Source: a virus. From it: a stretch of 34,242 bases of DNA. The position numbers were made by a program, and so were the translations under genes. Positions 4,661 through 25,382 of the stretch are shown in pieces (position 1 is the first letter of the stretch; every line of letters starts with the position of its first letter). The stretch spans positions 1-34,242 of IMG/VR virus record IMGVR_UViG_3300036719_005005; one strand, written 5' to 3'. Under the pieces are notes generated by a model. It was not told where the DNA came from. It did no database searches and saw only the letters and a list, made by a program, of their open reading frames with translations.

Positions 4661-6721
4661 TCAAACGATGGTGAAAGCTGCGGTGACGAAGTCCTTGTTC
4701 AGGTTGGCAAAGCCAGCGTACAGCTGCCAAATCAAGATGATAAAGCGGCTGAAGTCATCGTTGTTGTTGATGAGAACCTGAGCGTTGGGGCCACCGATGC
4801 CCACGCCAACGGCCTGAGGACCGAAGAACAGAGCAGGAGGAGTGTTGTGAGACACAGCGCCGAGACCGTCGCCAGTGTCCACAGTGATGGACTTGTCAGC
4901 AAAGTTGGTGGACTCGAAGAAACGTACGCCTTCAAAGACAAAGCCAGAAGGCATGATCGGTTCACCAGCCACGAATTGAGCTTGGCCGTACTGACCGCCG
5001 CCATAGATGGAGGCGTTGGGAGCCATGGCACCCATAAGGGGGTTAGGCTGGCCCATGCCAGGGTAACGAGCCACTTCACGGAAACCTTGGTCAGCACGCA
5101 GATCCTTCATGAAAGAGGGATCAGCAATACAGCGGTAGTAACCGTCAGCAAAGACAGGCACATTGCGCTTGCGGAGTTGCTTGACAACTTCCAGAAGGTC
5201 AGTTTTGACGTTGAACTTATAACGCTCAGAAGCGTATTCTGTAGCGGAATAAGCAGTCAGCGTGGTAGAGCCAGTCTTGATCTTACCGTTGGGGTAGTAG
5301 TAACCACCTTGGGTGTCAGAAGAGGCACCACGAGCTTCCGATTTCGAAAACTCATCAAGGAACACACGATCGCGCCAGCGGCGATAGTCGTCTAGCAGGG
5401 TCAGCGAACCGATGGACTGGTGGAACATGTTAAGGTTCCCGGTGTCCAGCAGCAGACGCTGAGCGGTCATCAGAGTCTCACGAGCAATTTTGAAAGTGCT
5501 CGGGAGGTTGGAGTTGTTCGGGTCGGCAGGACCAGTGTACTCACGCAGAGAGACGAGCACTTTGTCCTTAACGATGGAGCGGCTATTAGCCGTACCAATC
5601 GTTTGGTCTTGGGTACGCTCACGCTGAGTTTTGGTGCCGGGGTTGCCCCAGAAACGGTACCGGTCTAACTGAACAGTTTGACCAGGCTGTTTAGTGAAGT
5701 CGTGGACAACAACAGGCTCGGCTGCCATTTCCACAATATAAGCCGGGTGGGGACGGTACAGCTCCGCGCCCAACAGCTTGGGAAAATCGTTCTCCTGATC
5801 TCCAGTCTCCTGAAGGGGTGGACTATCTCTTCACCCTGTAAGGGTGCCGGGCGCTAATGGCGTATTACGAATGAAGCGTCATTCACCGCCTAGTCTCTGC
5901 ACCTTCCAACTACGTACTTAGTTGGCTTGGCTCAGGATTACCCTCGACTTGACGTTAGGGCTTCCCTGAATTCACCCGGTTTTCACTGATCAGTTGCCTG
6001 ATCAGGCGACAACGTTGACTACTCAGCTAAGTCGTGTTAGGATTGGAATCAAGTTGTTTTTATACAACATGGAACCAAAACTTGTTCCTGGATTTGAAAA
6101 CCTTTACTTGAGCTTTTCTGGGACTCCTTATCAAAAAATCAATGAAGACTTTGTTGAATTAAAGGTCAGCTCATCAAGCATGTACGACAGGGTTTCTGTT
6201 CTTAAAAATGAAAAGAAAGAAAGGCACCATGTACACGTTCTTATGGCTGTGACATTTTTAGATTTAGATTTAGCTTTACACGGAACCGGAAGTGCTTCTC
6301 TTCAAGTTGATCACAAAGACGGAAACAAAAGAAACAATTCTCTTGAAAACCTTGAAGTTGTTACAAAAAGAGAGAATTACGATAGGGCGTTAAAAGCTGG
6401 GTGCTACTCTAAAAATGGTTACGCCAGTAAAGGTAGGCCAAAGAAAACATTAAGAAAGTTTTCGGAGGATGACATTGTGCAGATTAAAGAAATGAGATCA
6501 GACGGTCTTTCTTATAGAAAAATTGCTGCTTACTTTAACTGCAATCACTTGGCCATTTATCAAATCTTAAAAGGAAAAACCTATCAGGATCTGAGTTAGC
6601 TATCGATAAACATGTTGGTAATTCAGCGTAAGTTTTAGCTGAAACCAGGATCTGGAGGATCCTTGGGTACAGTAGTTTCCGGTTTCCCGTAACCGCTGCT
6701 TGCCTGGAACTTCCGTCCCAT
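4661..6721 (-). CDS. Major capsid protein, split by a group I intron (exon 1 about 6643-6721; exon 2 about 4661-5799)
   Basis: Exon 2 encodes about 379 residues including LGAELYRPHPAYIVEMAAEP and a long soluble capsid-like body ending in FVTAAFTIV. Without splicing its best start would be a weak TTG at 5773. On the same strand an ATG at 6721 opens a short frame (MGRKFQASSGYGKPET) that meets a stop at 6635-6637, just inside the intron. Joining about 6643 to 5799 restores one frame of 1,218 bases, or 405 residues. The protein has no motif I can name. The call rests on size, place after portal and scaffold-like genes, and the strong expression context. Splice sites are estimated from phase and the P9 hairpin and could be off by a few bases. 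Confidence 0.75.
5800..6642 (-). mobile_element. Group I self-splicing intron inside the capsid gene
   Basis: On the minus strand, 5800-6000 reads as a group I core. P4 is TCAGG/CCTGA, P5 is CCCT/AGGG, and P6 is CCAACTA/TAGTTGG. The P7 strands are GACTA in GTGCAGAGACTAG and TAGTC in AAGAGATAGTCC. P8 is CACCCT/AGGGTG, and a terminal P9 hairpin has stem UUCAG/CUGGA with a GAGA tetraloop. The GTGCAGAGACTA and AGATAGTCC strings are hallmark group I core sequences. The intron end is placed at the G after P9. The 5' end near 6642 is supported by phase and a local hairpin (TTCAGC/GCTGAA), but no clear U-G pair was found, so that boundary is approximate. Confidence 0.82.
6069..6599 (+). CDS. HNH homing endonuclease encoded antisense within the intron
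   Basis: From the ATG at 6069 the protein has 176 residues. It starts MEPKLVPGFENLYLSFSGTP, like the NUMOD4-type N-terminus of HNH homing enzymes. The core LQVDHKDGNKRNNSLENLEV is the HNH motif with its His and Asn positions. The C-terminus (about residues 135-170: KFSEDDIVQIKEM and SYRKIAAYF) is a helix-turn-helix for target binding. The frame stays open upstream to 5994, but that part overlaps the intron core. The gene points against the capsid gene and lies wholly within the intron, so it needs its own promoter; TTTTTATACAAC just before the ATG is A/T-rich. Such enzymes cut the intronless allele and spread the intron. Confidence 0.88.
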   Translation: MEPKLVPGFENLYLSFSGTPYQKINEDFVELKVSSSSMYDRVSVLKNEKKERHHVHVLMAVTFLDLDLALHGTGSASLQVDHKDGNKRNNSLENLEVVTKRENYDRALKAGCYSKNGYASKGRPKKTLRKFSEDDIVQIKEMRSDGLSYRKIAAYFNCNHLAIYQILKGKTYQDLS

Positions 6722-21846: not shown

Positions 21847-22125
21847 ATGAGACTACGTTGGGGTTGGGTCGGAAGTAACAGCCGCAGAGGTAGTTCAAGC
21901 GGTGGCGTTGTGTTGGATTTTAATCCGATGGCGAACTACTACACGCTCGAAGTTGAGCGTTACGGCGAGTGGGTGAAGTACGACTTCATGCCAAACGCTA
22001 ACAACACGGTCTATACCAAGCCAAGCTTTGGTCGCGGTAAGACAATACCAACCGAAGAAGCTCGCCGCCTCTGGTCAGCGCTGATCCGTAAGGGTTGGTC
22101 GCTTCAAGGTGAGCCTAACTTCTAA
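21847..22125 (+). CDS. Small early protein followed by a hammerhead ribozyme
   Basis: From the ATG at 21847 the protein has 92 residues. The likely folded part starts at residue 28 (MANYYTLEVERYGEWVKYDF), with an ATG of its own at 21928, then NTVYTKPSFGRG and a helix (TIPTEEARRLWSALIRKGW). The upstream part is Arg/Gly/Ser-rich and may not be translated; an A/G-rich run precedes 21847. The aromatic strand-strand-helix layout suggests a small beta/alpha domain, family unknown. The stop is followed within 3 bases by the first hammerhead. Confidence 0.65.
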   Translation: MRLRWGWVGSNSRRGSSSGGVVLDFNPMANYYTLEVERYGEWVKYDFMPNANNTVYTKPSFGRGKTIPTEEARRLWSALIRKGWSLQGEPNF

Positions 22126-22127
22126 AT

Positions 22128-22192
22128 ACACGGCGAAACCGGGGGTAACACCCCGGTCCGGCAGCTTGACATGCTGTCGCTGATGAGCCTGT
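22128..22192 (+). ncRNA. Type II hammerhead ribozyme 1
   Basis: All core elements are present in type II order. The stem II 3' strand is GGC (22132-22134), then GAAA (22135-22138). Stem III is ACCGGGG/CCCCGGT with a 6-base loop. The cleavage triplet GTC ends at 22158. Stem I is CGGCAGC/GCTGTCG with one G-U pair and a 7-base loop. CTGATGA (22160s-end, 22180-22186) is the canonical CUGANGA box, and GCC closes stem II. Extra pairs ACA/TGT extend stem II past a bulged C. Cleavage is expected between 22158 and 22159. It starts 3 bases after the stop of the preceding gene. Confidence 0.93.
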
Positions 22193-22488
22193 CACACCTA
22201 TACCATACCTAATCTACCCTGAAACACCCTGTCAGCATACTCACACCACTTTCATGGGTACAAACCCCTGTACTCCCCTTCAAATCCCTTCCAACGCAAG
22301 GCTTCTCAGTCTTGACGCCTGATATTTAGTGGGGGTCGATTTTCAACCGGCAGAGCCTGTGGAATGAGCCACACCTTGTTTACTTCGTTAATTGCGGAAC
22401 GCGCTTACACAATTAACACCGATGATTGCCTCCAGGGCTAACAGCCTTAGATGCAGTCTTCATGACTGTGTAGTTTACAAAACAACCC
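22193..22488 (+). other. Non-coding stretch after the first ribozyme
   Basis: I see no credible gene here. The first 100 bases are C/T-rich and unusually poor in G. Small hairpins include GTACA/TGTAC (about 22,258), TGTGG/CCACA and CAGTC/GACTG (about 22,456). AACAGCCTTAGATGCAGT at 22440 is related to elements at 22706 and 23943. It may be a long leader or a control region for the following cassette array. Confidence 0.5.
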
Positions 22489-22662
22489 GTGATTGAACTA
22501 ATGATCGGACATCCCAGCTTTGCTGAAATGAGCATTCTGGAAGTGTTTAACTATCCGGTAACTTCAGCTCAAATTATGAACCTGGAGTTTCTGTACATTG
22601 CTTCACCCCAGTGGAAACCCGCTTGGAGTGAAGATTTTGCAGTAGCCGGTACAGCAGATTAA
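22489..22662 (+). CDS. Cassette gene A: 57-residue hypothetical protein
   Basis: GTG at 22489 (or ATG at 22501) opens a 57-residue frame: MIELMIGHPSFAEMSILEVF followed by NYPVTSAQIMNLEFLYIASP. It is acidic and aromatic, without motifs. Its last codons form the 5' acceptor-like strand of the first tRNA-like element, and its TAA is the single-stranded linker. The next cassette genes share the GTG start after a C-rich run, which supports this start. Confidence 0.6.
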   Translation: MIELMIGHPSFAEMSILEVFNYPVTSAQIMNLEFLYIASPQWKPAWSEDFAVAGTAD

Positions 22663-22696
22663 GGCGTGAGCCGGGGGATCGAATCCCCCATCTGCT
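22653..22696 (+). ncRNA. tRNA-like element 1 (acceptor stem plus T-arm)
   Basis: Perfect 7-pair stem AGCAGAT (22653-22659)/ATCTGCT (22690-22696). Inside are TAA, a hairpin GGC-GTGA-GCC, then a T-arm GGGGG-ATCGAAT-CCCCC whose 7-base loop carries the T-loop TCGAA core. There is no D-arm or anticodon arm; total 44 bases. The stop codon of gene A is exactly the linker. There is no U-tract, so it is not an intrinsic terminator. Confidence 0.85.
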
Positions 22697-22697
22697 A

Positions 22698-22732
22698 TTG
22701 CATTGAACAGCCTAAGAAGCAGTTCTATGCAA
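22698..22732 (+). ncRNA. Conserved hairpin with AGCCTAAGAA loop, copy 1
   Basis: Stem TTGCAT-GAAC/GTTC-ATGCAA (one T-T mismatch) closes the loop AGCCTAAGAAGCA. A second copy at 23940-23966 keeps the loop sequence while its stem bases change yet still pair, an indication of conserved RNA structure. Confidence 0.6.
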
Positions 22733-22735
22733 ATT

Positions 22736-22755
22736 TGCTCCAGTGGAGATAAGCA
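22736..22755 (+). promoter_or_regulatory. Leader hairpin of cassette gene B
   Basis: TGCT/AGCA closes a loop with CAGTGGAGATA, followed by ACCGCAC. Equivalent hairpins precede genes C and D with different but pairing stems (TACCC/GGGTA, TGCC/GGCA) and the shared loop CAGYGGAGAT, suggesting a conserved leader. Confidence 0.6.
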
Positions 22756-22775
22756 CCACACCGCACACACCCACC

Positions 22776-23012
22776 GTGCATAACTTCTATCCCTCTGAAG
22801 ACATCTTTTTTGCGACCGAAGCCGCTGCTCAGGCAGCAGCTGAGAACACCGTACAAGAGCTGTACCGACGAGCAGGAGAACAGCGCAGCGTAGCTGTAGG
22901 CATTGCAAGTGTAGTAGTTACTGGCACAGCCGTAGCTGCTATTGCAGCCTGGAAATCACCTATGGGCCGCAAGGTCCGTAACAAGATCGCAAACGCGATC
23001 AAAGCTGAGTAA
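22776..23012 (+). CDS. Cassette gene B: small single-pass membrane protein
   Basis: GTG at 22776 opens a 78-residue protein. An acidic N-terminal helix is followed by a membrane segment (residues about 41-57, VAVGIASVVVTGTAVAAIAA) and a basic C-terminus (MGRKVRNKIANAIKAE), a positive-inside arrangement. The frame is open further upstream, but that part lies in the conserved leader hairpin, and the GTG start matches genes C and D. A tail-anchored or inner-membrane effector is possible; no family known. The 3' end forms the 5' strand of the second tRNA-like element. Confidence 0.65.
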   Translation: MHNFYPSEDIFFATEAAAQAAAENTVQELYRRAGEQRSVAVGIASVVVTGTAVAAIAAWKSPMGRKVRNKIANAIKAE

Positions 23013-23056
23013 CCGCAAGGTTGGCGTGAGCCGGGGGATCGAATCCCCCACTCGGC
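23004..23056 (+). ncRNA. tRNA-like element 2 (three stacked hairpins in a 7-pair stem)
   Basis: GCTGAGT (23004-23010) pairs with ACTCGGC (23050-23056) with one U-G pair. Inside, with no linker bases, are AACC-GCAA-GGTT, GGC-GTGA-GCC (both GNRA loops) and GGGGG-ATCGAAT-CCCCC. This is a compact four-way junction of 53 bases, like a miniaturised tRNA. The TAA of gene B spans the acceptor end and the first hairpin. Confidence 0.85.
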
Positions 23057-23058
23057 AT

Positions 23059-23079
23059 TACCCCCAGCGGAGATGGGTA
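23059..23079 (+). promoter_or_regulatory. Leader hairpin of cassette gene C
   Basis: TACCC/GGGTA with loop CCAGCGGAGAT, then ACCGCACAACGGAG, whose GGAG could serve as ribosome-binding site for the GTG at 23102. Confidence 0.6.
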
Positions 23080-23101
23080 CCGCACAACGGAGCTAACCCC
23101 C

Positions 23102-23260
23102 GTGGTTAACCACAACTACCAGGTGATCCTTGAGGATCTCATCGAGAATCTCCAGTCTTTAGGACAGGATTATACCGATGAACAGGCACAAGCCTGGGCC
23201 TGGGATCGGTTCTTCCAGCAGTATCCAGAATACTGTGAACTTCCGGAGAACTACGGCTAA
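23102..23260 (+). CDS. Cassette gene C: 52-residue hypothetical protein
   Basis: GTG at 23102 preceded by GGAG opens a short acidic, aromatic protein (MVNHNYQVILEDLIENLQSL then DYTDEQAQAWAWDRFFQQYP). It is helical, soluble and without known motif. It ends in ENYG, with the stop inside the folded region of the third tRNA-like element. Its frame is shorter than 60 codons and easily missed. Confidence 0.6.
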   Translation: MVNHNYQVILEDLIENLQSLGQDYTDEQAQAWAWDRFFQQYPEYCELPENYG

Positions 23261-23301
23261 TCCGTCAAAGCGGGTTGGGAGGTGCAAACCCTCCCACAGT
23301 T
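23249..23301 (+). ncRNA. tRNA-like element 3
   Basis: T-arm GGGAGG-TGCAAAC-CCTCCC (23277-23295), preceded without a gap by a hairpin AATCCG-TCAAAG-CGGGTT (23259-23276). An outer closing stem is either AACT/AGTT (4 pairs) or the longer ACTGTG (23232)/CACAGT (23295) upstream. The TAA of gene C lies in the 5' side. Core sequence ATCCGTCAAAGCGGG recurs in element 4. The outer stem is less certain than in elements 1, 2 and 5. Confidence 0.7.
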
Positions 23302-23303
23302 AT

Positions 23304-23324
23304 TGCCTTCAGCGGAGATAGGCA
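23304..23324 (+). promoter_or_regulatory. Leader hairpin of cassette gene D
   Basis: TGCC/GGCA with loop TTCAGCGGAGATA, followed by ACCGCACAACAGGAG, an apparent ribosome-binding site 9 bases before the GTG at 23345. Confidence 0.6.
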
Positions 23325-23344
23325 CCGCACAACAGGAGAACCCT

Positions 23345-23536
23345 GTGGAACCAGCACTTGCTTACACTCTTGAGGTTCTTATTTCGCTGCGTGAAGCAGC
23401 GATTGAAGTCTCTTGTGAAAGGCACGTGAGCCACGAGAAATGTCTTGCCGAGATTATTGATCATTTCATCAAAGAGAATGATCTTAACGGTGAGATTACT
23501 CACAAGGTTTACGACTCGCTGTTTCAACTTAGCTGA
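23345..23536 (+). CDS. Cassette gene D: 63-residue helical protein
   Basis: GTG at 23345, preceded by AGGAG, opens an acidic helical protein (MEPALAYTLEVLISLREAAI then EVSCERHVSHEKCLAEIIDH) with two Cys and several His in CERHVSHEKC, a spacing that could bind a metal, though this is not a known motif. The frame could open earlier, in the T-arm of element 3, which is unlikely. The stop TGA lies inside tRNA-like element 4. Confidence 0.65.
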   Translation: MEPALAYTLEVLISLREAAIEVSCERHVSHEKCLAEIIDHFIKENDLNGEITHKVYDSLFQLS

Positions 23537-23577
23537 TCCGTCAAAGCGGGCGGCCAGGTGCAAACCCTGGCCCAGTT
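23526..23577 (+). ncRNA. tRNA-like element 4
   Basis: T-arm GGCCAGG-TGCAAAC-CCTGGCC (7 pairs, 23552-23572), preceded by TCCG-TCAAAG-CGGG, with AACT (23526-23529)/AGTT (23574-23577) as a short outer stem. The T-stem sequence differs from element 3 yet stays fully paired while the loop is identical, which is covariation. The TGA of gene D lies in the 5' side. Confidence 0.72.
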
Positions 23578-23579
23578 CT

Positions 23580-23599: not shown

Positions 23600-23626
23600 C
23601 TTTCGCACACACCACCAAGCGTCGCC

Positions 23627-23890
23627 ATGACCGAAGCTGCTGTGTATAACAAGCTCCAGGATCTTCGCCTGCTTGCCAGGCGTGATTCCACTCTCCGTTC
23701 ACCCCAGGTGGATGCAGAATTGGAGCAGTTCCGCCTCCAGTTCTTCGCTGCTTTTGAGCAGTGGATGGATGGCATGCGTGAACTCGATCTCACACCGTTC
23801 ATTGTAACGGCTGATCGAATAATCACCGGGAACCGTGAGCTACTTAAGTGGCTCAAAAATGAGATTGAGCAAGAAATCAATCTCGGCTGA
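23627..23890 (+). CDS. Cassette gene E: 87-residue helical protein
   Basis: ATG at 23627 opens an acidic, helical, Leu/Arg-rich protein (MTEAAVYNKLQDLRLLARRD ... WMDGMRELDLTPFIVTADRI). The frame can be extended to 23558, but that would include the T-arm of element 4 and the leader hairpin. It resembles helical phage proteins of unknown role. The stop lies within the 5' strand of tRNA-like element 5. Confidence 0.65.
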   Translation: MTEAAVYNKLQDLRLLARRDSTLRSPQVDAELEQFRLQFFAAFEQWMDGMRELDLTPFIVTADRIITGNRELLKWLKNEIEQEINLG

Positions 23891-23931
23891 GCTGTAGACA
23901 GCCAGGGGAGGTGCAATTCCTCCCTCTCAGC
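23886..23931 (+). ncRNA. tRNA-like element 5
   Basis: GCTGAG (23886-23891)/CTCAGC (23926-23931) encloses CTG-TAGA-CAG and a T-arm GGGGAGG-TGCAATT-CCTCCCT (6 pairs plus G-U). The TGA stop of gene E is within the acceptor 5' strand. It is followed by ATTT, like the ATTG/ATTA after the other elements. Confidence 0.82.
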
Positions 23932-25073: not shown

Positions 25074-25304
25074 ATGCGCCAAGACACTTCGTTTCTGTAC
25101 CGCAAAGAAGATAGTGGCTACCTAGTCACTATTCGTGGCGACTTTGCAGAAATGACCAAAGTTAACTGCAAACAACATCGCTCCGAATACATCCGATTAG
25201 AAGCACCCATTGAAGTGATTCGAGATTCGGTCTCTAAACTCACTAAGCAAGGTTACAAGCTCTGCATCTCTCTTGATCTGGACTGGCGTAAGCTTGCTGC
25301 ATGA
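25074..25304 (+). CDS. 76-residue early protein followed by a hammerhead ribozyme
   Basis: ATG at 25074, after a CACCCACCACCACCACTAACC leader, opens a small alpha/beta protein (MRQDTSFLYRKEDSGYLVTI ... EAPIEVIRDSVSKLTKQGYK then LDLDWRKLAA). No known motif. The TGA stop touches stem II of the second ribozyme, so after self-cleavage the mRNA would end with stem III of the ribozyme about 34 bases past the stop. Confidence 0.65.
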   Translation: MRQDTSFLYRKEDSGYLVTIRGDFAEMTKVNCKQHRSEYIRLEAPIEVIRDSVSKLTKQGYKLCISLDLDWRKLAA

Positions 25305-25368
25305 GGACGAAACCAGGGGGCTCCAGGGCTCTCTGGTCGGCCACTCAATAGTGGCCCTGAAGAGTCCT
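25304..25368 (+). ncRNA. Type II hammerhead ribozyme 2
   Basis: AGGAC (25304-25308) and GTCCT (25364-25368) form stem II. GAAA (25309-25312) follows. Stem III is ACCAG/CTGGT with a 16-base loop. GTC ends at 25338, the expected cleavage site. Stem I is GGCCACT-CAAT-AGTGGCC (7 pairs). CTGAAGA (25357-25363) is the CUGANGA box. Order and all core bases are right for a type II fold. A competing stem (AGGGCTCT/AGAGTCCT) could form and might switch activity. Confidence 0.93.
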
Positions 25369-25382
25369 TTGCACCTAACAGA

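Follow-up and report, generated by a model that had tools for sequence, protein, structure and literature searches.

A candidate type II hammerhead ribozyme behind a stop codon of an S-EIV1-like cyanophage, and a T-loop RNA element at neighboring gene ends

Our analysis indicates that positions 22132–22194 of a freshwater cyanobacterial virus genome very probably form a competent type II hammerhead ribozyme, a conclusion drawn from the sequence together with covariation. The window, by which we mean the whole stretch of DNA analyzed, comprises all 34,242 nucleotides (34.2 kb) of IMG/VR virus record IMGVR_UViG_3300036719_005005. This ribozyme, referred to below as hammerhead 1, lies directly behind the stop codon of a small gene, and its main role would probably be to separate cistrons while leaving a structured end on both products. 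Other gene ends nearby carry a different RNA, the T-loop element, which at one gene is replaced by a hammerhead in a relative.

The minimal fold of hammerhead 1 (22132–22189, plus strand) starts 6 nt past the stop TAA at 22123–22125. Its stems I and III are loop-closed, its stem II is open, and its strand order is II-III-I-II, which excludes types I and III. The 5′ strand of stem II (GGC, 22132–22134) pairs over 3 bp with GCC at 22187–22189 and leads into G12, A13 and A14 (GAA, 22135–22137), read from the sequence as is the CTGATGA box (C3–A9, 22180–22186). Between them lie the stem III hairpin (22138–22157; ACCGGGG at 22138–22144 with CCCCGGT at 22151–22157, 7 bp), C17 at 22158, with the cut predicted between C22158 and C22159, and the stem I hairpin (22159–22179; CGGCAGC at 22159–22165 with GCTGTCG at 22173–22179, 7 bp, loop UUGACAU). 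Bases UGACA of loop I (22167–22171) can pair over 5 bp with UGUCA of the 3′ tail (22190–22194) in a predicted pseudoknot. All core positions described for hammerheads by Perreault et al., 2011 are present, that is C3 U4 G5 A6 N7 G8 A9, G12 A13 A14, A15.1 (A22138), U16.1 (T22157) and H17 (C22158). The core-adjacent pairs 10.1–11.1 (G22187-C22134), 1.1–2.1 (C22159-G22179) and 15.1–16.1 (A22138-T22157) are formed as well, and they are kept in all three versions of the element that we found. The hammerhead is the minimum-energy fold (–30 kcal/mol, z –2.98), and in the predicted structure an ACA/TGT extension of stem II competes with the pseudoknot. The initial annotation had placed a type II hammerhead at 22128–22192, and the full core, covariation, pseudoknot and diverged orthologues bear this out. 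Its landmarks, a GTC ending at 22158, CTGATGA at 22180 and a start near 22128, are likewise correct from the sequence; the distance of three bases that it gave from the preceding stop has to be amended, two bases separating that stop from 22128. The pseudoknot is an addition to that annotation.

The terminase of the window shares 66% identity with its counterpart in Synechococcus phage S-EIV1, and at least 599 IMG/VR stretches match it; on terminase sequence, the phage belongs to the S-EIV1-like cyanophage group. Structural genes run leftward to 21681 and small genes rightward from about 21.8 kb. The gene that precedes hammerhead 1 (21928–22125, plus strand, 65 aa) has an open frame from 21775, and its start is the ATG that follows a conserved GGATTTTAATCC leader; alignments with its homologues (96% identity in L088, 67% in L089/L090) begin near this ATG at 21928. 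A family search with its product returned no known family. Since it is the first rightward gene past the divergently oriented structural genes of this S-EIV1-like phage, its description as an early gene is plausible. The leader is a perfect inverted repeat ahead of the start codon (21910–21930), also present in L082 and L089, and an AGAGGYAGTTC-like motif recurs ahead of several genes (near 21885, 22705, 23950 and 26600). Elsewhere in the window, a group I intron (93.7 bits; 5799–6039, minus strand) adjoins a 370-aa ORF (4661–5773) and is overlapped on the opposite strand by an ORF (5994–6599, plus strand) that looks HNH endonuclease-like by eye.

Identical copies of hammerhead 1 occur in L083, L087 and L092 (one contig) and in L085/L088; the copies in L086/L089, L090 and L252 have diverged. 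Across its three distinct versions, all 65 of the 65 cells with letters are paired, the structure counting 22 pairs when the pseudoknot is included. Both partners of a pair have changed in stem I (C-G to G-C), in stem III (G-C to A-U) and in the pseudoknot (a compensatory C-G to G-C in L252). Sliding the partners cuts pairing to 34–48%, and 29 of 500 column shuffles reach the observed value, a weak control with only three sequences. This retention of the core and of every pair, with compensatory changes in diverged phages, argues against a non-cleaving relic or a mere 3′ stabilizing pair of hairpins with hammerhead bases, and the second hammerhead of the window, described below, likewise keeps its core and pairs. 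Losses in some relatives and an Rfam score under the cut-off are what such a relic would lead one to expect, and we regard it as very improbable.

The losses are instructive in themselves. Two nearly identical relatives, G019 (L082/L254) and G002 (L250), match the window as far as the start codon at 21930, then carry another gene, and match again from 22151 in stem III, the stretch exchanged in L250 and L254 being 21931–22150 of the window. They have lost GAA and the 5′ strands of stems II and III, so that a broken ribozyme, its 3′ half, is all that remains, and G004 lacks hammerhead 1 altogether; the ribozyme is thus dispensable. The initial annotation had made its case depend on the core bases being present in related phages, which holds for G020, G021, G022 and G023, for one half of the element in G002 and G019, and not for G004. 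Replacement of the gene between start codon and stem III in G019 and G002 implies that genes are exchanged as cassettes, and L254 also lacks two whole cassettes of gene plus T-loop element (window 23063–23578), with breaks at the element ends. These breakpoints would fit a model in which ribozymes and T-loop elements are mainly DNA recombination joints for gene cassettes and any RNA function is secondary, but any conserved flank could produce a like picture by homologous recombination, and covariation at the RNA level and intact catalytic cores require RNA function, so that we give this model very little credence.

By calling hammerhead 1 the first copy, the initial annotation implied a second, and a strict type II scanner, with exactly two matches in the window and not a single one across 100 dinucleotide shuffles, located it at 25303–25369 (plus strand; predicted cleavage 25338|25339, CTGAAGA at 25357–25363, fold z –3.49). 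The final two bases of the stop TGA at 25302–25304 fall inside stem II of this hammerhead 2. In its four distinct versions 18 of 18 pairs are formed, six of them with both-sided changes, and none of 500 shuffles reached its covariation score; its loop I/3′-tail pseudoknot would comprise at most 3 bp.

These elements largely escape Rfam. RF02276 detected hammerhead 1 in a 161-nt search (26.4 bits, E 0.0011) under the gathering cut-off of 37, a score that is a detection threshold and no defining feature of type II hammerheads, and a short search gave no match at hammerhead 2. The initial annotation had suggested a scan of the genome with the Rfam hammerhead II model, and RF02276 run over the record returned no hammerhead, as did Rfam at gathering score over the whole window and a scan of 21.7–34.2 kb up to E 10. 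Since the 161-nt search does find hammerhead 1, we attribute the silence on long stretches to a filter and threshold effect. The cut-off is also insensitive in contigs L200, L106 and L120, each with several full-core hammerheads, for which RF02276 scores two, none and none above it, so a missing Rfam match is no evidence against such elements.

Placement at a stop codon, which the initial annotation considered the notable feature of this copy, turns out to be common. We searched viral contigs with a pattern that fixed only GGCGAAACC, GGTC and CTGANGAGCC, leaving stems I and III free, and found at least 120 stretches; both free stems form in 119 of 144 distinct matches listed, against 12 of 2880 shuffled versions. 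A structural scan of the contigs of the listed matches gave 226 distinct type II hammerheads with a median stop-to-G12 distance of 6 nt and a stop within 15 nt for 145 of them; the next start codon often follows about 25 nt further on in these contigs. An ORF stop falls at –15 to +8 of G12 in 138 of 215 listed phage hammerheads, against 9.9% of random same-strand positions, and loop I/tail complementarity of at least 4 bp is found in 46% of 230 listed phage hammerheads, against 17% with shuffled tails, figures that describe a GGC/GCC sub-class, since the collection was chosen mainly through that stem II pattern. In L200, hammerheads mark successive gene ends, nearly every one over several kb. 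We conclude that a position at the gene end is the rule for phage type II hammerheads, mainly of the GGC/GCC sub-class. That hammerheads flank individual prophage genes was published by Perreault et al., 2011 (PMC3088659) and repeated in a 2017 review (PMC6155905); within the open-access literature, we found no paper stating the stop-codon rule. The 2011 study also reported that tandem phage-type hammerheads cleave in vitro and in E. coli, and that the loop I/3′-tail pseudoknot is typical of type II, not universal.

A model consistent with these data is that, on a polycistronic early transcript, hammerhead 1 would fold once the ribosome leaves the stop codon, dock loop I on the 3′ tail and cut itself between C22158 and C22159. 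The upstream mRNA would then carry the stem III hairpin and a 2′,3′-cyclic phosphate at its 3′ end, and the downstream RNA a 5′-OH and the stem I hairpin at its 5′ end; neighboring cistrons would be separated, each with a structured end, and their stabilities could differ. We infer the cleavage, its cotranscriptional timing and its effect on mRNA stability, and the end chemistry is taken from known hammerhead chemistry. What lies downstream allows another reading. The roughly 300 nt after hammerhead 1 (22195–22500) hold no listed gene, parts of them are kept in relatives, and they lie near the strand switch and close to the peak of cumulative GC skew (about 22 kb), so that they possibly represent an origin or a regulatory region. 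The cut might serve mainly to free this non-coding stretch and fix its 5′ end, for instance as an origin or regulatory RNA, and less to trim the upstream mRNA, and the hammerhead of G023 likewise stands just ahead of a similar non-coding stretch. Such a release is unlikely in our judgment, because L089 has another gene between the ribozyme and that stretch and because a start codon follows hammerhead 2 and most listed phage hammerheads. We retain cistron separation as the probable main role.

The spacers between hammerheads 1 and 2 hold T-loop elements at stop codons. Such an element is a three-way junction of 44–53 nt that includes a T-loop hairpin and as a whole covers the stop codon; the final codons of the gene, in most cases together with the stop, lie in the 5′ strand of its outer helix. 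A small hairpin occurs in the variants UCCG-UYNARG-CGGG, GGC-GUGA-GCC and CUG-UAGA-CAG, and a second hairpin has a 7-nt loop with the T-loop motif (UGCAAAC, UGCAAUU, AUCGAAU). On the plus strand of the window, element 1 (22653–22696, z –4.35) combines a 7-bp outer helix, GGC-GTGA-GCC and a 5-bp T-loop hairpin with loop ATCGAAT; element 2 (23004–23056, z –4.23) has a 7-bp outer helix, two small hairpins and a T-loop hairpin; element 3 (23255–23301) has a weak outer helix with only three Watson-Crick pairs; element 4 (23531–23577, 5 + 7 bp, z –1.4) folds poorly alone in a longer stretch; and element 5 (23886–23931) comes from descriptor scan and fold. Relatives carry them at L252 5379–6313, at about 3790 and 3496 (reverse) of L094 and at about 1504–1550 of L389. 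Two descriptor scans yielded 4 and 3 elements for the window, compared with 0.13 and 0.17 per shuffled window, the top shuffled score equaling the top window score in the second. Past the T-loop elements (about 22728–22760, 23063–23090 and 23305–23330; also in L084, L088, L089, L252 and S-EIV1) we noticed a leader element, UGCCU-CCA-GCGG-AGAU-AGGCA-CCGC and variants, in which two helices overlap, each showing covariation by eye. These helices look mutually exclusive and may form a switch ahead of the next start codon; an H-type pseudoknot is sterically unlikely (no third loop, a first loop of 3–4 nt), and two alternative hairpins fit better.

A pattern scan for T-loop elements in viral contigs matched at least 119 stretches. 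Among the listed matches there are about 100 distinct elements, mostly from S-EIV1-like cyanophages, and 18 of 28 contigs checked from these matches also encode an S-EIV1-type terminase. An ORF stop lies at the element in 83 of 92 distinct listed elements, and at the exact same base in 59. Two T-loop elements occur in the isolate S-EIV1; in the marine podovirus S-SBP1 there is a single one, closing an unannotated ORF a short way ahead of the major capsid gene. Alignment of the mixed set (MAFFT + RNAalifold) gave a poor consensus with misaligned classes, and we counted one class of fixed geometry instead. In its 34 listed sequences, which had been selected for a second hairpin with 6 or more of its 7 pairs formed, 98.5% of cells pair, with a covariation score of 0.595 versus 0.173 and 115 both-sided changed cells versus 33 shuffled and at most 28 slid. 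The outer helix, unselected, offers the fairer test: 96.5% of its cells pair, and four of its five pairs show both-sided changes. Loop conservation is uninformative, as the search pattern fixed the loops. No Rfam family matched the T-loop elements, which apparently are undescribed. They are not tRNA genes, ARAGORN finding none in the window, nor intrinsic terminators, none in the window being followed by a T run. A cellular origin is not supported either, the pattern giving only nine scattered matches in 84,980 genomes and none in cyanobacteria.

One gene connects the two RNAs. The gene at 23618–23890 ends in T-loop element 5 in the window and in a T-loop element in L082, L084 and L085/L088, and its G023 orthologue (56% identity, E 1.6e-30) has a type II hammerhead in that place (L252, 6600–6675), stem II of which is overlapped by the stop TAG. 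This swap makes it probable, from one case, that hammerhead and T-loop element are equivalent at gene ends, and setting mRNA ends at gene borders is their likely shared role. The outer helix and T-loop stem together measure 12 bp in 63 of 103 listed elements and 11–13 bp in 97 of 103, counted with a finder that maximized pairing and required the T-loop pattern, and the split varies (5+7, 6+6, 7+5). The acceptor and T arms of tRNA also total 12 bp, and RNase P cuts tRNA precursors at the 5′ end of the acceptor helix. The matching length at most suggests recognition by tRNA-processing enzymes, with the difficulty that RNase P, cutting just 5′ to the outer helix, would strip the stop codon from the message. 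It is conceivable, and we put it forward tentatively, that S-EIV1-like phages end many small early genes with either a hammerhead or an interchangeable mimic of the tRNA top half built on a putatively stacked, T-loop-capped helix of about 12 bp, the latter cut by RNase P or RNase Z of the host or itself a new self-cleaving RNA; if so, polycistronic phage mRNA would be punctuated by tRNA mimics and ribozymes.

Hammerhead 1 alone is one more phage hammerhead. The wider value of our analysis lies in the generality of stop-codon type II hammerheads in phage genomes, many of them missed by the Rfam cut-off, and in an abundant cyanophage group whose hammerheads share gene ends with another conserved RNA for which Rfam has no entry. 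A gene found with one or the other RNA at its end is a natural experiment on what phage hammerheads do, and the T-loop elements of the isolates S-EIV1 and S-SBP1 open the question to bench work.

T-loop elements resemble the top half of tRNA and viral tRNA-like structures in their roughly 12 bp of helix and 7-nt T-loop (UGCAAAC or AUCGAAU), but they have no complete cloverleaf and no CCA end, and their 5′ strand carries the last codons and the stop. Hammerhead 1 shares with the type II hammerheads of Perreault et al., 2011 (PMC3088659; RF02276) the core, loop-closed stems I and III, a short open stem II and the pseudoknot, as well as an occurrence in multiple copies beside small phage genes; it differs only in residing in an S-EIV1-like cyanophage genome, in its low similarity (26.4 bits, under the Rfam cut-off) and in sharing gene ends with a second RNA element. 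A parallel in arrangement comes from the IMG/VR contigs L200, L106, L120 and L103, with at least five type II hammerheads each, mostly at successive gene ends and many below the Rfam cut-off. These arrays have the same fold, at or directly after stop codons, but whereas in L200 hammerheads occupy nearly all gene ends over several kb, the window has two, with T-loop elements between them.
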